From the NCBI RefSeq assembly GCF_000482245.1, contig NZ_AWNH01000047.1, positions 38,957 through 102,956 on the forward strand: a stretch of 64,000 nucleotides of DNA, read 5' to 3'. The position numbers and the translations under genes were made by a program. The notes under the pieces are model-generated. The model saw only the letters and a list, made by a program, of their open reading frames with translations, made no database searches and was not told where the DNA came from. This document shows positions 1 to 8,714 of the stretch, piece by piece. Positions within the stretch are counted from its first letter, which is position 1. Each line of letters begins with the position of its first letter. This stretch comes from Leptolyngbya sp. Heron Island J (GTDB lineage Bacteria > Cyanobacteriota > Cyanobacteriia > Phormidesmidales > Phormidesmidaceae).

Positions 1-2894
1 CCTTGCTGCTGAGGGCTTTGTGGCACCTAGGAGCCGATGCTCACTATGCCATTCCTAGCCGCATGCAAGAAGGCTACGGTATCAACCGGCGTATTGTGGA
101 AGAGTTTTATCAGGAAGGGGTGAGATTAATTCTCACCGTAGATAATGGCATTGCGGCCTATGAACCGATTGCTCGGGCGGTGGAGCTGGGGCTAACGGTG
201 ATTATTACCGACCACCACGATCTGCCAGAACAACTGCCTCCGGCCCAGGCTATCCTCAATCCAAAACTGTTGCCGACGATTTCTCCTTACTATGGTGTGG
301 CAGGTGTCGGTGTGGCGTATATTCTGGCGGTATGTCTGGCCCAGGCGCTCAATCGCACCCAGGATCTCACGGCGTCATCATTGGAGTTGTTTACCCTGGG
401 AACCATTGCTGATTTAGCTCCCCTGGTAGGGGTTAACCGTCGTTGGGTGCGGCGAGGGCTACAGTTGTTGCCAAAGTCTCGGATTCCAGGGATTCAGGCG
501 CTGATTGAGGTGGCTGGGCTAGATCAGGGTAAAAAGGCCCTCAAGCCTGAAGCGATTGGCTTTCGCCTGGGACCTCGCATCAATGCGGTGGGGCGAATCG
601 CTGATCCGCAGATTGTTATTGATATGCTCACAACTGAAGATGTGGGAATTGCTCTGCAGCGGGCCATGCAGTGTGAAGAGACTAACACCCTGCGACAGCG
701 CATGTGTGAGCTGATTGAAACCCAGGCAGTAGCTTGGTGTGAGCAACAACAGACCCAGGGTAAACTCGACCTGCAACAACAGCGGGTGCTGGTAGTGGTT
801 CAACCCGACTGGCACCACGGCGTGATTGGAATTGTTGCCTCGCGTTTAGTTGAACGCTACGGCGTGCCTGTGTTTATTGGCACCTATGAAGATAAAGAAC
901 AAAAAGAAATTCGCGGCTCAGCCCGTGGCATTCCTGAATTTAATGTGTTTGAAGCGCTACAGGCCTGTGATGATTTGTTGGGTAAATACGGTGGGCACCG
1001 GGCTGCAGGAGGATTTACCTTTGCAGCGAAAAACCTGCGCCAGGTGACTGCGCGGCTAAGTCATTTTGCTTGTCAACATCTGCAGCCAGAATATCTCAAG
1101 CCTCTGGTCACCGTCGATGTTAAAGCGAATCTGGCGGATATTACGCTCAGTCTTTACGAACAAATCGATTGTCTGCATCCCTGTGGTATCCAAAATTCTG
1201 AGCCTATGTTTTGGACGCCTTTGGTAAATGTGATTGAGCAGCAGATTGTGGGCAAAGATCGCAGACATCTCAAGCTGACTCTGGCGCACACCCATCCAGA
1301 GACACGTCAAGTAACGTCCATTAAAGCCATTGCCTGGCGTTGGGCCGAGTATCATCCACTGCCCCATCAGATCGATATTGCTTACAAAATTCGTCTGAAT
1401 GAGTGGCAAGGTAAACAATCTGTAGAGCTGGAACTGGTTGGCTTAAAGCTGGCTCAGCCAGACTTGACTGCTGGTTCAATTCCACCTTGGTCAGAAGCCG
1501 TGAGTAATGTAGTGGAGACTCCGGTGGCTGGCGATAGTGCACCTGTTAGTGGGAACCCGGTTGCGCAGCCGCTGCCACAGCCGACAGATTCGCTGACGGT
1601 TAGCCCTAAACACTCAACGGATCGATCCTTGGAACTCCCTCCGGTGAATGGCCAGAGTCCTAAAGTGGCTGAGCCTGCGCCGATCATCGAGTCCTTCGTA
1701 TCGTCATCCCAGGCGAGTGCTGTGGATAGTTTGCCAGTGGCGGCTACCCATGCTGAATTTGTTTATAGCAAACGCCGCTACATCAGTACTATTGAACACG
1801 ACAATTCCCAAGAATTGCAGATTCGTAATTGGGAGGGGCATTTGTTGGTGGTGCAGCTGGTCCAGCGCCGTGGTGTCCTGTATATGCCGAATGAGACGCC
1901 TGAAGTGGTGGATTTGTCCGACACTTACTATTTCAATTTGTTGCGGGCTGGGTTAAATGCGCTGGAGCTGAAACAAAAAACGAGCTTGTTAATCCACAAA
2001 GATGAGCTACTGGCAGAGCAAAATGCGCTTCTCCAAGAAAAGGATAGTCAAATCGCGACGCTCAACCAGCAAATTCAAATGCTAGAGGATAAGATTACTC
2101 AGCTGTCTGAGGAAAAGCAGACGGCATTTCAGCAGTTGCAAACGGAACTGCAACAGCAGCAGGCCGCGATCGCAAACCAGGAAGCCCATATTGTCCAATT
2201 ACAAACCGATCAACCCCGGCGGACAGTGCCGCCCCCCGATCCCACCGTCATCAAGCAGGAGGTACGTAAGGCCCTGGGTGATAGCGTTTGGTTTTGCATG
2301 CAGCCAGATTCCCAAAAGGAGCTTTGCTCCGCCTATCGCACGTATCACATGCTGGAGTCCGAGGGGGCAGATCCTGATATTGCCGATTATTCAGAAGCCG
2401 GAATGCGTCTGAGCGCTGCTGTGGAACGTGAAGTAATGCAGCCGTTTTTTACAGACCTCTATGATTTTGTGCGATTGGAAGGTACTACGACTATTGGTGA
2501 AGTTAGCCTGGGTCCTAACCAGCAATACACCCTAGCCATGATGCCATCCTTGCTAGCAGAGCAGTGGCGCACGCTCAAACGCGATGCCCTAACGCAGCCA
2601 CAAGCAATGCCAGAAAAGCAGCTCTATCAAACGTTTAAGCATTCAAATAGCTTAAATCGTCGTGATCGCGACCTGCTCACAGAATTTTTTGAGCAGTGGG
2701 AACATCCGATGGCGGTTTGCTTTGGTCAAAAAGGTAAACAATCGGCGGCCAGCTTAGACCAAATCAGCCGATTACAAACGATTGCGGCCCAGGGTGAAAG
2801 TTTTTTCTACGATTGGCATTACAAGTTACTGCGGCAGCTGGTCGTCGGTGGGGCTGATCGACGCGGTTTATTTCGGCAGATTTACGGAGGATAA
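1..2894 (+). CDS. recJ: Single-stranded-DNA exonuclease RecJ, 5'-truncated by window edge, with long C-terminal extension
   Basis: RecJ degrades single-stranded DNA 5' to 3' in recombination and mismatch repair. Counting from codon 3, the DHH motif is at about residues 70-72 and the DHHA1 glycine motif GGHRAAGG at about 330-337, followed by the OB-like region to about residue 480. The frame is open to the left edge and the first DxD metal motif of the family is missing, so the N-terminus lies outside the window. Bacterial RecJ normally ends near residue 570. This one continues with a Ser/Pro-rich linker (about 490-590), a Gln-rich coiled coil (about 655-740) and a further folded-looking domain to residue 963. 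Cyanobacterial RecJ proteins are often extended, but I do not know a function for this tail. It is followed by a long spacer holding DnaA boxes. The family call is firm; the tail's role is unknown. Confidence 0.93.
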   Translation, partial: LLLRALWHLGADAHYAIPSRMQEGYGINRRIVEEFYQEGVRLILTVDNGIAAYEPIARAVELGLTVIITDHHDLPEQLPPAQAILNPKLLPTISPYYGVAGVGVAYILAVCLAQALNRTQDLTASSLELFTLGTIADLAPLVGVNRRWVRRGLQLLPKSRIPGIQALIEVAGLDQGKKALKPEAIGFRLGPRINAVGRIADPQIVIDMLTTEDVGIALQRAMQCEETNTLRQRMCELIETQAVAWCEQQQTQGKLDLQQQRVLVVVQPDWHHGVIGIVASRLVERYGVPVFIGTYEDKEQKEIRGSARGIPEFNVFEALQACDDLLGKYGGHRAAGGFTFAAKNLRQVTARLSHFACQHLQPEYLKPLVTVDVKANLADITLSLYEQIDCLHPCGIQNSEPMFWTPLVNVIEQQIVGKDRRHLKLTLAHTHPETRQVTSIKAIAWRWAEYHPLPHQIDIAYKIRLNEWQGKQSVELELVGLKLAQPDLTAGSIPPWSEAVSNVVETPVAGDSAPVSGNPVAQPLPQPTDSLTVSPKHSTDRSLELPPVNGQSPKVAEPAPIIESFVSSSQASAVDSLPVAATHAEFVYSKRRYISTIEHDNSQELQIRNWEGHLLVVQLVQRRGVLYMPNETPEVVDLSDTYYFNLLRAGLNALELKQKTSLLIHKDELLAEQNALLQEKDSQIATLNQQIQMLEDKITQLSEEKQTAFQQLQTELQQQQAAIANQEAHIVQLQTDQPRRTVPPPDPTVIKQEVRKALGDSVWFCMQPDSQKELCSAYRTYHMLESEGADPDIADYSEAGMRLSAAVEREVMQPFFTDLYDFVRLEGTTTIGEVSLGPNQQYTLAMMPSLLAEQWRTLKRDALTQPQAMPEKQLYQTFKHSNSLNRRDRDLLTEFFEQWEHPMAVCFGQKGKQSAASLDQISRLQTIAAQGESFFYDWHYKLLRQLVVGGADRRGLFRQIYGG

Positions 2895-3180
2895 ACCACA
2901 ATTTCAAGTACACATCTGTCAAGACCTGTGGATAACTTACTTGCGTCTTTGGGTGCAAGATATATGGATTTTTTTTGAAATATAAAGATAGCTAAAATTT
3001 TTGCATGCCAATGCCTTGAGGACTTCTAGCTGCTTAAATTCTTTAGTTTATGTCGGATTAAAGGTCAACGATAATAGCTGACTTCGTAGAATTTCCACAA
3101 GTTTTCCACAGAGTTTCCACAGGTTTTCCACAGAGTTTTCCACAGGGGTAATAATGTGCGGAAATTGTCCGTAATTTAGT
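2895..3180. other. oriC: Candidate chromosomal replication origin (DnaA-box array next to AT-rich segment)
   Basis: Five same-orientation DnaA-box-like nonamers lie at 3091-3099 (ATTTCCACA), 3102-3110, 3124-3132 and 3136-3144 (each TTTTCCACA) and 3113-3121 (GTTTCCACA). Start-to-start spacing is 11, 11, 11 and 12 bp, about one helical turn. A sixth box, a perfect TTATCCACA on the minus strand, lies at 2927-2935. Between them, 2959-3002 is strongly AT-rich and could be an unwinding element. TTTTCCACA is the usual cyanobacterial form of the DnaA box. The arrangement fits an oriC or a DnaA-titrating locus. The flanking genes are recJ and a TPR gene, not dnaA or dnaN, so origin identity is inferred. 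Confidence 0.6.
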
Positions 3181-3546
3181 CGACGCAAAATATATCTGTA
3201 TGACCAACCATAATTAATTCATGGGGAGTGGTCATAAGCAGTGCAGGTCAACCTAACCGTTTCGAGAATGATCGATACCATGGTTGAAGATTTCAGCTAA
3301 CTAAATATTGAGTAATGTAGTTATGTTTGATCAAAGTGGGGACCCTGGACCTGTGTGTCGATGTACACATATTTATGTGTTGTCATATACAGAGAGGCTA
3401 TTCTCTGCCGGTCAATATAAGTCTGAATTTCTATTGGATGTGACGGCTATCAGTGCCAATCCGATGTCCGGTCTCTATCCTTAAAATTTGTATAACTAAG
3501 TGATACGACCCCTGCGTGCTTTTGCCGTATAAATACATAGATACTG
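3181..3546. other. Spacer between DnaA-box array and TPR gene
   Basis: About 365 bp with no convincing gene. A 53-codon ATG frame (3323-3484) is present but has no recognisable motif. The segment probably carries the promoter of the TPR gene that follows. I see no hairpin with a T-run. Confidence 0.4.
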
Positions 3547-4701
3547 ATGATGAGTGGTCAAGTTATTGATGTTGCTGATACCAGCTACCTATCCCATGAG
3601 CAGGATAACCGCTACCGGCTGGAGATCAAGATTTGCGATCGCATCATTCAACGCTATCCCTACCACTACCAGGCTTGGAACTATCGTAGTTACTTATTAG
3701 CCAGTGTCGGTCGATATGAAGCAGCCGTCGAGAGCTATCGGCACACCTTATCGCTGAAGTCTACGGAACATCGCGTATGGTGTAACTACGGTGCTGTTCT
3801 TGAAAAGCTAGAGGCATTGGACGAAGCGGCAAAGTGCTACAACCACGCCCTCAAGCAGGCTCCGTTCTATTTCAAGGCCCAGTATCGCAAAAGCAAAAAT
3901 CTGCATCGAAGGGCCTTGTATGGCGAAGCTATTGTGAGTTACGACCAAGCCATTCAGTTACGACCTGATTTTTATAAAGTTTGGTACTATCGCGGCAAAG
4001 CGATGCTGCAGCTCGATCGGACCGAGCAAGCCATTGCCAGCTTTAATAAAGCCGTTGAACTTTATGATGGCGATGGCAAAGTCTGGTTGGTCTTAGGGCG
4101 TACCCTGCTACAGGTGCACAAGTATCAAGATGCGCTCAGAGCTTTTAATTATGCGATTCAGCTTGAGCCCGACAATGCTGGCCTTTGGAGCTATCATGCG
4201 GCGACGATGAAGGCACAAGGTAATTTGGAAGATGCTTTAGCCAGCCTTGAGCATGCGGTGGCATTAGACCCCGATGAATCTCGATTTTGGCACCTGCGCG
4301 GATTGGTGCTGTTAGAACTCGATCAGCTGGAGGTGGCAGAATCCAGCTTTACTACTTCATTAAAGTTGCAAGCCTATAACTACCAGGGCTGGTTGGCTAT
4401 GGGCTGGACGTTGCAAAAGATGGGGGATTTTAGTCGGGCCATCGAAGCATACGATAAATCCCTGGCAATTGAACCCGATCAGCCGTTTGCGTTTTACAAC
4501 CAGGCTCGCTGTCATGCTCGGTTGGGGCAGGATACATGGGCCGTGGAGCATTTACGCCGGGCCATGTCATTAGATCCTAATATTTATACAGAGCGAGCCC
4601 ATGCAGACCCATTACTGCAGGCTATTTTGCATGACATGGAGAATGACGATAGTAGCGAAGATTTAGAGGAAATCGAGCTGATTACGTTGGATTCCCATTG
4701 A
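3547..4701 (+). CDS. Cytoplasmic TPR-repeat protein (384 aa)
   Basis: The protein is made almost entirely of 34-residue tetratricopeptide repeats (about nine), with typical A..YY.....L and A..S...A.....P signatures. Examples are the blocks around residues 120-155 (EAIVSYDQAIQLRPDF) and 155-190 (QAIASFNKAVEL). TPR arrays form right-handed superhelices that hold partner proteins; no enzymatic domain is visible. There is no signal peptide or membrane segment, and the C-terminus is acidic. Two ATGs occur in tandem at 3547 and 3550 and either could be the start. It stands alone between the DnaA-box spacer and a tRNA gene on the other strand, so context gives no role. Confidence 0.85.
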   Translation: MMSGQVIDVADTSYLSHEQDNRYRLEIKICDRIIQRYPYHYQAWNYRSYLLASVGRYEAAVESYRHTLSLKSTEHRVWCNYGAVLEKLEALDEAAKCYNHALKQAPFYFKAQYRKSKNLHRRALYGEAIVSYDQAIQLRPDFYKVWYYRGKAMLQLDRTEQAIASFNKAVELYDGDGKVWLVLGRTLLQVHKYQDALRAFNYAIQLEPDNAGLWSYHAATMKAQGNLEDALASLEHAVALDPDESRFWHLRGLVLLELDQLEVAESSFTTSLKLQAYNYQGWLAMGWTLQKMGDFSRAIEAYDKSLAIEPDQPFAFYNQARCHARLGQDTWAVEHLRRAMSLDPNIYTERAHADPLLQAILHDMENDDSSEDLEEIELITLDSH

Positions 4702-4761
4702 TTTGATTTGAAGAAAAGTTGTGTGGACGCTCCGTAAAACGCCTTCACAAACTTAGATATA

Positions 4762-4834
4762 TGGAGCTAAGCGGGCTCGAACCGCTGACCCCCTGCATGC
4801 CATGCAGGTGCTCTACCAGCTGAGCTATAGCCCC
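4762..4834 (-). tRNA. tRNA-Ala (anticodon GGC)
   Basis: Read on the minus strand, the 73-nt gene has a 7-bp acceptor stem (GGGGCTA with TAGCTCC), a D arm GCTC..GAGC, an anticodon stem CCTGC/GCAGG around loop ATGGCAT (anticodon GGC) and the T-arm motif GGTTCGAGCC. The discriminator base is A. The 3' CCA is not encoded and must be added after transcription. It closely resembles bacterial tRNA-Ala(GGC). Confidence 0.97.
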
Positions 4835-5380
4835 TTGGGTCTAATTAATAATCTCTTGCTAAGAGCTTACCGTCAAGGGATTTTTCTGAGGCGTTTGCGA
4901 TCGCTACGGCAAGCAAGGGTTAAACATGCTGCGATCGCGGATCAATCTGAGTTCTCAGCCGGTTCTAGAAATGCCTTGAGTTTCTATAAGCATTCAGATA
5001 GTGTAAAGCGGATTTATTCCCTGTGTCTTAGACTTTCTCCGCAACCTTGGCAAGTCCTCGCTCCAATTGGCATAGCTAATGAAAGGTGATTAGCACCATT
5101 GAGAACCCTGAAACGTTGCTACTTCAAACATTGTCCTTATTGCCCCGTCCTTATTCCTCCATCCTTTGCTATCGAATCTTGTTTGCGTGATCAAAAACAC
5201 TCCTAAAACTAATAAAGATCACAAAAATTGCATCGGAATTAATAGGTAAAGTCCCGTTTCTATAAATAGAACATCCAATGCTCCCTCGCCAAAGCCCTCA
5301 TGTTTGCCCTACTCGCTGTTAATCCATCAGGATTTTATTTATGTAACTCACTGCTCTCGGTACACATCAATCTTCTGTTG
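4835..5380. other. Non-coding spacer upstream of candidate structured RNA
   Basis: About 550 bp between tRNA-Ala and the structured segment. There are two HIP1 octamers (GCGATCGC) near 4898 and 4932. No ORF with recognisable content is present, since the long frame here runs through the antisense of the tRNA. No clear promoter could be assigned. Confidence 0.4.
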
Positions 5381-6341: not shown

Positions 6342-8714
6342 TCATACCTTGTCGATAGGTAGGAGTATACTGAGATTGATCTCCTCACGCACTTTACGGC
6401 TGACATAGCAGTCTTCCTTGAGGCATTGTGCTAGTAGCTTATTGACATCATAGTACTCTTTTAGCGTTCGTATTTCAGAGTCTGTAAAATTCCAACAGTG
6501 GCCTATATTTCTATGCTCTAGAATAATGGTTCTGAAGTTATCAATCCATTGATTAAAGTCCTTAAGCCACCACTGTTCAGATACTTCTATTTGATTGGGA
6601 AAAGACTTTCTCAAATCTACTAGTTTTTCTTGTAGCTCAATTTCAAATGCTTTTGAAGCGCACCGATCCATACATGAGATAACACTCTTATGGCTTTTTC
6701 TGAGGTTAGAGCTTGTTATCCTTTTCCTTGTATTTGAATTGAGAACATTATACTTAATGATGCTTGCCTGAATTTCAAGACATCGATTCAATACTTTTAT
6801 AAGCTCTGAATCTAGTGAGAGATCTTGGCTTACACTTCGCTTTTTAGGCATAACGCTATTTTTGACTATTAAATTAAAATAAAAAACTTTGCCAATAGCC
6901 TGCAGACTTGATATATCTTTTTTACTTTTGATTGATACCGACTTATCATTGAGCCAGGCAAGAAATGAGCTGATTTTTTCATTTTCTTCAACGATTTTGT
7001 CGATCTCATTTTTTATTAGTTTAATTAGATAGTCTGCTTGAGGCAGCATACATGCAACTAGTAGAAAAACTTCCTGCCATCGGTAGTCATTGATATGAAC
7101 AGCTAATGAATTTAGCAGTTTGTTTTGTTCTTGAGGATCTAGAGTTTTGACAATTTTTAGGCTGACAAAATACTCATGGAAAGTGCGATGAGAGAAGGAA
7201 TAAATTCCTTTTGCTACCTCAACGATTAATCCATGTTGAGCGATCATTGATTGTAATACTGAGTTACAGTCAAGCTCAACTTCTTCTGGTGAGTCGATAG
7301 ATCTTGGCAGGTTGGAAATATAATCCCTGATTTCGTTTTCAATAGTTTCCTTTTTAAATAAGCCTTCATTTTTTTCAAAAGTTGCATAAGCTATTTTTCC
7401 AAGTAAATCTTCTTTTTTATGTTTAGAGAGCTTTCTATAGGTTTCAGGTCTTTCTACAGCTCTACTGACATCCCACTTACGTAGTAAAACATCTAGACCT
7501 TCTTGATATAACTCAGCTTGATTTTTAGGGAATTCCTCTGACTCTTCAAAAACTATGCATAGTAATGTCAGCAATAAGGGATTGGTGGCGAGTTCGCTAA
7601 TTTCTTGATCATCTTTAAGTCTATTAATAAATTTTTTGGTTTTTTGAGGTGATTTTTTGGTCGCAAACCAGTTACTGACAAATATAGAAATTTGCTCCTC
7701 AGTAAAATCACAGACTTCGACCTCTAAAAAATTCTCAAATTTATACTCACTAGCCGCTAATCGGCATGTGAGTATAAATCTATTTTGACTAAATAGCTGT
7801 GATAATTCTTTTATTTGTCTGATGACACGATTGAAATTTTCTTTTCTAACCTCATCCAATCCATCAAAAAGAAATATGACTCTTGATTCTTGTAGAAGTT
7901 TGCTAAAAATCCCTTTGTTGATATTGTGGTGATTTAACTCATTTTCGATGTGTGTTTTAAGATCGGTATCATTATCTTGGTCTTGAAAATCCTTGAGAGA
8001 AACAAAAATAGGCACATGTCCAGATAAAATTTCCGATCTATTTGTAAAGGTGGCAATATATTTTAGGAACGTTGTTTTTCCGGCTCCCGGCCTACCAAGA
8101 ATCATGAGCTTTGAACAATTTTGAAGGAGTTCAATTCCTGATATTTTTTCTTCTTCAAATAACCTCGATATATTAAATTTAGGATTGTTTTTCTGAGCGC
8201 GTTTTTTGATTTTTTCCACCAAGTCTGATAGTTCTATTCGCCTTTGAGATGGGATCTGATTTGTGATCTTAACTTCTGTAAAAATATCTTTGACCTCAAT
8301 AGGTCTACTCATATCAAGAATTTGTATTTGCCCACATCTAGCATTGATCAGATTTTGAGTGTTCTGTTGTGCTTCTTGTACTAGGTCATCTATTGCTGCG
8401 TTGAGAAGTTGAGATGCATTTTTGATTTTTGGATGTGCTTTTTGGTACATTTCCAGCACTTCAACAAAGAGGAGTTTGGCCTTCCCAGGAAAATTTCCAG
8501 AAGGAACATTGAACTTTCTATAGACCTGTGTCATTCGAGAACTATATCTGTCTCTTGAAATATTTAGTTCTTTAGCAACGACTAAATCTGTTAGCTGAAT
8601 ATTGGTAAGACGTGCTACGAATGCCTCCTTTTCAAATGAGTTTAAGCCTTTTTTATCGGCTACTGTCTCAAGGTAGGCGCGAGGGATAGAAAGCATGTTC
8701 AGGAACTTGGACAA
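6342..8714 (-). CDS. NACHT-domain NTPase (STAND family) with N-terminal HTH; putative anti-phage defence protein
   Basis: A 790-aa STAND NTPase. Residues about 20-70 form a sigma/LuxR-like helix-turn-helix as found at the N-terminus of many cyanobacterial NACHT and vWA-MoxR-associated proteins. The Walker A is GRPGAGKTT (about 207-215) and the Walker B FLFDGLDEV (about 281-289), with the NACHT small residue plus DE pattern. A winged-helix-like segment with the SHRTFHEYF motif follows the NTPase core. The C-terminal 250 residues are helical and may be the sensor. Bacterial NACHT proteins are known single-gene anti-phage systems that sense infection and trigger cell death or dormancy. The gene is clearly more AT-rich than its neighbours and sits in a gene-poor region, which suggests horizontal gain. 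No separate effector gene is adjacent. The domain call is strong; the defence role is inferred. Confidence 0.88.
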   Translation of the reverse strand: MSKFLNMLSIPRAYLETVADKKGLNSFEKEAFVARLTNIQLTDLVVAKELNISRDRYSSRMTQVYRKFNVPSGNFPGKAKLLFVEVLEMYQKAHPKIKNASQLLNAAIDDLVQEAQQNTQNLINARCGQIQILDMSRPIEVKDIFTEVKITNQIPSQRRIELSDLVEKIKKRAQKNNPKFNISRLFEEEKISGIELLQNCSKLMILGRPGAGKTTFLKYIATFTNRSEILSGHVPIFVSLKDFQDQDNDTDLKTHIENELNHHNINKGIFSKLLQESRVIFLFDGLDEVRKENFNRVIRQIKELSQLFSQNRFILTCRLAASEYKFENFLEVEVCDFTEEQISIFVSNWFATKKSPQKTKKFINRLKDDQEISELATNPLLLTLLCIVFEESEEFPKNQAELYQEGLDVLLRKWDVSRAVERPETYRKLSKHKKEDLLGKIAYATFEKNEGLFKKETIENEIRDYISNLPRSIDSPEEVELDCNSVLQSMIAQHGLIVEVAKGIYSFSHRTFHEYFVSLKIVKTLDPQEQNKLLNSLAVHINDYRWQEVFLLVACMLPQADYLIKLIKNEIDKIVEENEKISSFLAWLNDKSVSIKSKKDISSLQAIGKVFYFNLIVKNSVMPKKRSVSQDLSLDSELIKVLNRCLEIQASIIKYNVLNSNTRKRITSSNLRKSHKSVISCMDRCASKAFEIELQEKLVDLRKSFPNQIEVSEQWWLKDFNQWIDNFRTIILEHRNIGHCWNFTDSEIRTLKEYYDVNKLLAQCLKEDCYVSRKVREEINLSILLPIDKV

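Follow-up and report, generated by a model that had tools for sequence, protein, structure and literature searches.

DnaA is the protein that starts chromosome copying, and a cluster of its recognition boxes directly 3' of recJ in Leptolyngbya sp. Heron Island J raises the question of whether this place serves as an origin of replication or as a locus that holds or regulates DnaA. The cluster lies in a stretch of 64,000 nucleotides (contig NZ_AWNH01000047.1, positions 38,957 to 102,956; hereafter the window, whose own numbering is used here) from a draft genome of 119 contigs. It comprises six DnaA boxes within 218 bp. Five point in the same direction and span 3091-3144, at spacings of 11, 11, 11 and 12 bp; the sixth is a perfect box in inverted orientation, 155 bp from the array, and the DNA between them is AT-rich (75% AT at 2961-3015). 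The initial annotation had described the phased array, the distant reverse box and the AT-rich tract, and had placed them outside the dnaA/dnaN context; all of this was borne out, and dnaA and dnaN are on contig C13. The features are as follows:

3..2894, plus strand: recJ (TIGR00644, 388.6 bits), start upstream of the window
2925..2938, minus strand: conserved DnaA box in inverted orientation, with the core TTATCCACA (2927-2935) within CCTGTGGATAACTT; 98% mean pairwise identity in eight genomes of the genus
2978..3034, no strand: AT-rich conserved block, located between the inverted box and the array; 79% mean pairwise identity versus 39-52% in the spacers
3091..3099, plus strand: DnaA box 1, ATTTCCACA, motif match
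3102..3110, plus strand: DnaA box 2, TTTTCCACA, 175 bp from the inverted box
3113..3121, plus strand: DnaA box 3, GTTTCCACA, motif match
3124..3132, plus strand: DnaA box 4, TTTTCCACA, motif match
3136..3144, plus strand: DnaA box 5, TTTTCCACA, motif match
3547..4701, plus strand: TPR-repeat protein gene (Pfam TPR matches), 403 bp past the array

The recJ score is below the TIGR00644 cut-off (396.9) because the window cuts the frame; the complete frame in the genome encodes 1100 aa.

In the genome search, a single full DnaA gene was located, adjacent to a single DnaN gene on C13. The intergenic stretch between them contains nine boxes with at most one mismatch and carries ATTTCCACA-GGCC-CTACTACTACTATTG, that is, a box followed by DnaA-trio repeats, an arrangement described in part of PMC8287927 as a pattern of bacterial origins. 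GC skew changes sign at this place (−0.118 on the left, +0.037 on the right) and keeps its sign around the recJ array (+0.061 and +0.024). In Leptolyngbya sp. PCC 7375 (G004), of the same genus, the skew passes from −0.076 to +0.122 across adjoining 4-kb bins that meet at 4.316 Mb, next to dnaA (4.314-4.315 Mb) with its box cluster. Around the recJ array, 183 kb from the change, the skew has positive values on either side. The same was observed in Adonisia turfae (G005), where the sign changes at dnaA (−0.076 to +0.045), whereas the recJ array has negative values on both sides (−0.049 and −0.035); in stretches farther from dnaA the skew of this genome is mixed in sign. For PCC 7375, the cumulative skew calculated over 40 sampled stretches (20 kb each) had an irregular course, with a minimum near 5.5 Mb, and by itself did not identify oriC; the sharp change was seen in 20 additional stretches sampled around dnaA. 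According to PMC7198777, an irregular skew is usual for cyanobacteria. The neighbours of the recJ element are recJ and the TPR-repeat gene, with neither dnaA nor dnaN beside it, a setting different from the usual cyanobacterial oriC neighbourhood. Given a separate dnaN-dnaA oriC on C13 and a skew sign change there and not at the array, we rejected the reading of the recJ array as the main origin, which on these sequence data is very unlikely. The initial annotation had called the array either the origin or a DnaA reservoir and had proposed GC skew as one of its checks. This check turned out against an origin at the array in the three genomes, each with its sign change beside dnaA, and only the second half of that proposal, a reservoir or regulator, still stands, as yet unproven.

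The array is a rare object in its genome. The 8.06 Mb genome contains 12 same-direction TTTCCACA pairs with 1-30 bases between the two boxes, all at one of four loci (the recJ array, the stretch between dnaN and dnaA on C13, C5:22364-22415 and C63:24082-24121), and the reversed pattern, used as a control in the same scan, gave no pairs. At the observed genome-wide density of boxes, the chance expectation for five boxes in 60 bp is approximately 3e-11 runs. These results confirmed that the recJ array is real and far above chance. Other kinds of feature were also considered for this region. An RNA feature at the array was discarded, given that the only Rfam match in 2700-5000 is a tRNA-Ala at 4762-4834; a terminator or promoter was likewise set aside, with a single terminator match (shuffle mean 0.6) and a single promoter match (shuffle mean 2.7) in 2800-3700. 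Farther along the window, on the minus strand (6342-8714), a lower-GC stretch holds an open frame of 790 aa with GRPGAGKTT and LFDGLDE motifs, which we take to resemble those of NACHT/STAND NTPases.

Conservation of the element was surveyed in 31 genomes (the window genome, G000, and 30 relatives), with the family genomes G015, G023, G024, G027 and G029 left out; the 3' end of recJ was located in 25 of them. The element follows recJ in nine of these 25, namely all eight genomes of the genus and Leptolyngbya SIO4C1 (G011), and no cluster was detected after recJ in the other 16, some of which have short downstream sequence. The script missed the end of recJ in six of the 31 genomes, and one of these, G035, carries the element. 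A scan of 84,980 species genomes with the exact pattern of inverted box plus array returned 49 stretches: nine are recJ-linked, including that of Phormidesmis LEGE 11477 (L179), 27 contain a match to dnaN or dnaA within the stretch fetched, and 13 have neither. Altogether, 11 recJ elements are available (the eight of the genus, G011, G035 and LEGE 11477). In 10 of the 11, a forward box is placed 174-175 bp from the inverted box; the exception is G003, with boxes at 185, 197 and 217. Among the genomes of the genus, the inverted box has a mean pairwise identity of 98%, the AT-rich block of 79% and the array of 75.5%, and the spacers have 39-52%. LEGE 11477 and G035 have an identical array and a common conserved middle block of their own type; the middle block was rejected as a shared motif, as its genus version was found, in the DNA examined, at recJ elements only. 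From these comparisons, three genera share the layout of the cluster, and the conservation of the boxes in relatives is strong, the opposite of what the initial annotation had named among the grounds for giving up the idea. The distance from the element to oriC varies, being 183 kb in PCC 7375, approximately 294 kb in G035 and 2.76 Mb on the A. turfae scaffold.

The fixed distance to the inverted box, together with the conserved AT-rich block in between, suggests a bent or looped complex. By analogy with datA of E. coli, and with a confidence that we would put at about even, we propose that the element is a non-origin DnaA-box cluster on which a looped DnaA complex holds back or times DnaA at oriC. 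What can be read directly from the DNA is the set of boxes, the 174-175 bp distance, the conservation footprint, a separate dnaN-dnaA oriC and the unchanged skew sign at the array. The proposed sequence of events would be that DnaA binds the element and bridges the inverted box and the array to form the looped complex; the AT-rich block (2978..3034), a possible bending or unwinding site, would perhaps be bent by HU; and the complex would lower or time free ATP-DnaA, so that DnaA at oriC would be held back or timed. In the experiments excerpted from PMC4674748, domain IV of Cyanothece DnaA bound two boxes with a 2-nt gap, and one box was not clearly bound; the same 2-nt gap separates most of the boxes in the window.

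Characterized systems share features with the element and differ from it in each case. Like datA, the element is an intergenic DnaA-box locus downstream of a transcribed gene, with boxes on either side of a central site and a conserved spacing (here 174-175 bp in 10 of the 11 elements, with the AT block kept in the genus). Unlike datA, it consists of a phased array of five boxes plus one distant inverted box, and its distance to oriC is not fixed, which weakens the analogy; besides, datA stimulates DnaA-ATP hydrolysis, whereas the recJ element is known from its sequence. To our knowledge, cyanobacteria have no IHF system. The IHF on which datA depends has been reported from a small number of phyla, proteobacteria among them (PMC10380432), and the interactions of DnaA on the boxes that flank the IHF bend of datA are described as spacing-dependent in parts of PMC10380432 and PMC4585315. 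The DnaA-box clusters of B. subtilis are similar in that several of them are found outside oriC, which is beside dnaA/dnaN, but there the resemblance does not include an individual layout conserved across genera, as seen for the recJ element. DARS1 and DARS2 of E. coli, with their head-to-head boxes I and II, are likewise non-coding loci distant from oriC with DnaA boxes in opposite orientations; the recJ element has five boxes head-to-tail and a single opposite box 155 bp off. Finally, the cyanobacterial dnaN-dnaA oriC shares with the element the TTTTCCACA boxes, the intergenic location and an AT-rich stretch, but at the recJ element no dnaA/dnaN neighbour, skew change or DnaA-trio repeats were found.

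Another explanation is that DnaA on the array acts as a transcriptional regulator of the TPR-repeat gene, which is the downstream neighbour in nine of the 11 elements (the genus and SIO4C1). The boxes are oriented towards this gene. Between the end of the array and the start of the gene there are 403 bp in the window and approximately 250 bp in G011, distances that resemble those of the arrays found upstream of DUF2811 genes (see below). In G035 and LEGE 11477, however, the element is retained between recJ and a convergent lipoprotein-like gene, without the TPR gene, so that a gene start downstream of the boxes, as expected for a DnaA-controlled promoter, is present in nine elements and missing in these two. 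Since the element is between convergent genes in two genomes, promoter control is not its general role. Additionally, G019 and G026 have TPR homologues after recJ without boxes, approximately 200 bp of poorly conserved DNA divides the array from the conserved stretch beside the TPR gene, and promoter-like matches in 2800-3700 are fewer than the shuffle mean. We consider this explanation unlikely for the element as such; promoter control may be a later addition in the genus. In the genus and SIO4C1, the gene starts 250-540 bp downstream, as at DUF2811 genes, and the element may have a role in transcription there. The conserved non-coding DNA directly upstream of the TPR gene is a second such stretch in the genus (approximately 3338-3546 in the window) and is probably the promoter or leader of this gene, apart from the DnaA element.

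The element could also be a passive reservoir of DnaA, with no special loop or catalytic role. It holds five or six of the boxes of the genome in a cooperative layout, and in B. subtilis the removal of six DnaA-box clusters advanced initiation (PMC5295017); according to the same review, the effect was strong only when all six were gone, and single clusters had no significant role, which also speaks against the datA-like reading of a single element. A pure sink, however, needs neither a fixed distance to an inverted box nor a conserved AT block, and five boxes are few among the 193 TTWTCCACA sites of the genome, which makes simple titration by number less likely, although arrays may outbind single boxes by far. 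We therefore give this explanation little credence and retain the datA-like looped complex as the preferred one.

A use of the element as a second or conditional origin is still less probable. Its phased boxes are next to an AT-rich stretch, several origins are used in some cyanobacteria (PMC7198777), and the skew profile of PCC 7375 is irregular overall; against this, the skew keeps its sign at the array in all three genomes compared (the window genome, PCC 7375 and A. turfae). A strict pattern of box plus DnaA trio matched oriC in all six genus genomes tested and in 7 of 16 in the family, and with this same pattern, which catches 7 of 16 family oriCs, no trio-flanked box was found in any of the 11 recJ elements. 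A reading of the boxes as a short tandem repeat, or as the binding site of a protein other than DnaA, is hardly credible: the copies are short and near-identical and the DnaA site is predicted from its motif, but the spacing mixes 11, 12 and 20 bp with no single period and the box positions are common across the genus, for which mixed spacing and cross-genus conservation a repeat artefact was rejected. Moreover, the motif corresponds to TTTTCCACA, the DnaA box of cyanobacteria (PMC4674748), also present at the oriC of this genome.

The cluster on C63 is located between sfsA and a DUF2811 (PF10929) gene, a layout retained in G001-G005. The window genome has four DUF2811 loci (the examined set as a whole is covered by loci L282-L360):

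C63:23558-23728, DUF2811
C14:174255-174425, DUF2811
C50:5306-5476, DUF2811
C17:46280-46450, DUF2811

Class-wide, DnaA-box arrays were detected upstream of 77 of the 79 DUF2811 genes examined, 75 of them with at least two boxes, in a scan that covered up to 900 bases upstream and used a pattern that also admits TTTTCCCCA-like variants. Boxes were present at 28 of 30 loci of the family (98 boxes upstream versus 9 downstream; one of the two loci without boxes had only 400 bases upstream), at all 29 loci of the class, chosen as those with the highest scores in a sample of 195 genomes (105 versus 5), and at all 20 further loci, hand-picked, which include the other three of the window genome. For comparison, a background of 0.077 boxes per 900 bases was measured in PCC 7375, where 4 of 880 windows of that size contain at least two boxes. 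The boxes run mostly in the direction of the gene, often 11, 12 or 20-23 bp apart, and the arrays are mostly placed approximately 200-620 bp upstream of the start of the domain. From these data, the DUF2811 genes are candidate DnaA targets.

DUF2811 is a small protein present in 191 of the 195 sampled genomes of the cyanobacterial class. It is absent from two of the three genomes without a DnaA match versus 2 of the 192 with one (Fisher p 0.0009, with genomes taken as independent of relatedness; the comparison involves G061, G159, G165, G166 and G171); G165 has no DnaA match and keeps DUF2811. No mention of DUF2811 was found in the literature searched, its profile gave a best E of 1.2 against solved structures, and its structure model has a mean pLDDT of 59. 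At one locus of G003 (L253, G003:C86:500-6000; 1514-3298), two units of array plus DUF2811 gene are in tandem, approximately 1 kb apart, which suggests that array and gene duplicate as a unit. The cluster on C5 (C5:22363-22458; 9364-9459 in L013) has boxes spaced 12, 11 and 21 bp, followed after 43 bp by one in inverted orientation, and is located between two pentapeptide-repeat-like genes. It resembles the DUF2811-linked array of G003; no DUF2811 gene was detected within the 19 kb read, and it is possibly an orphaned copy.

Regulatory DnaA-box loci outside the origin have been worked out in E. coli and B. subtilis. Our search of the literature, with subscription journals mostly outside its reach, found no description of such loci in cyanobacteria. 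Non-origin DnaA clusters are thus a known kind of locus, from which the recJ element differs in layout and lineage. As a tentative extension, which we hold with less confidence than the role proposed for the recJ element, cyanobacteria might possess a network of DnaA arrays outside oriC, formed by the looped, datA-like hub at recJ in this clade and by a class-wide module in which DnaA would govern DUF2811; this small protein may in turn act on replication or the cell cycle. The role of DnaA in cyanobacteria is partly unexplained, and an element of fixed geometry together with class-wide candidate targets makes the question directly testable. If it exists, this network would explain why DnaA is kept in lineages that no longer need it to replicate.
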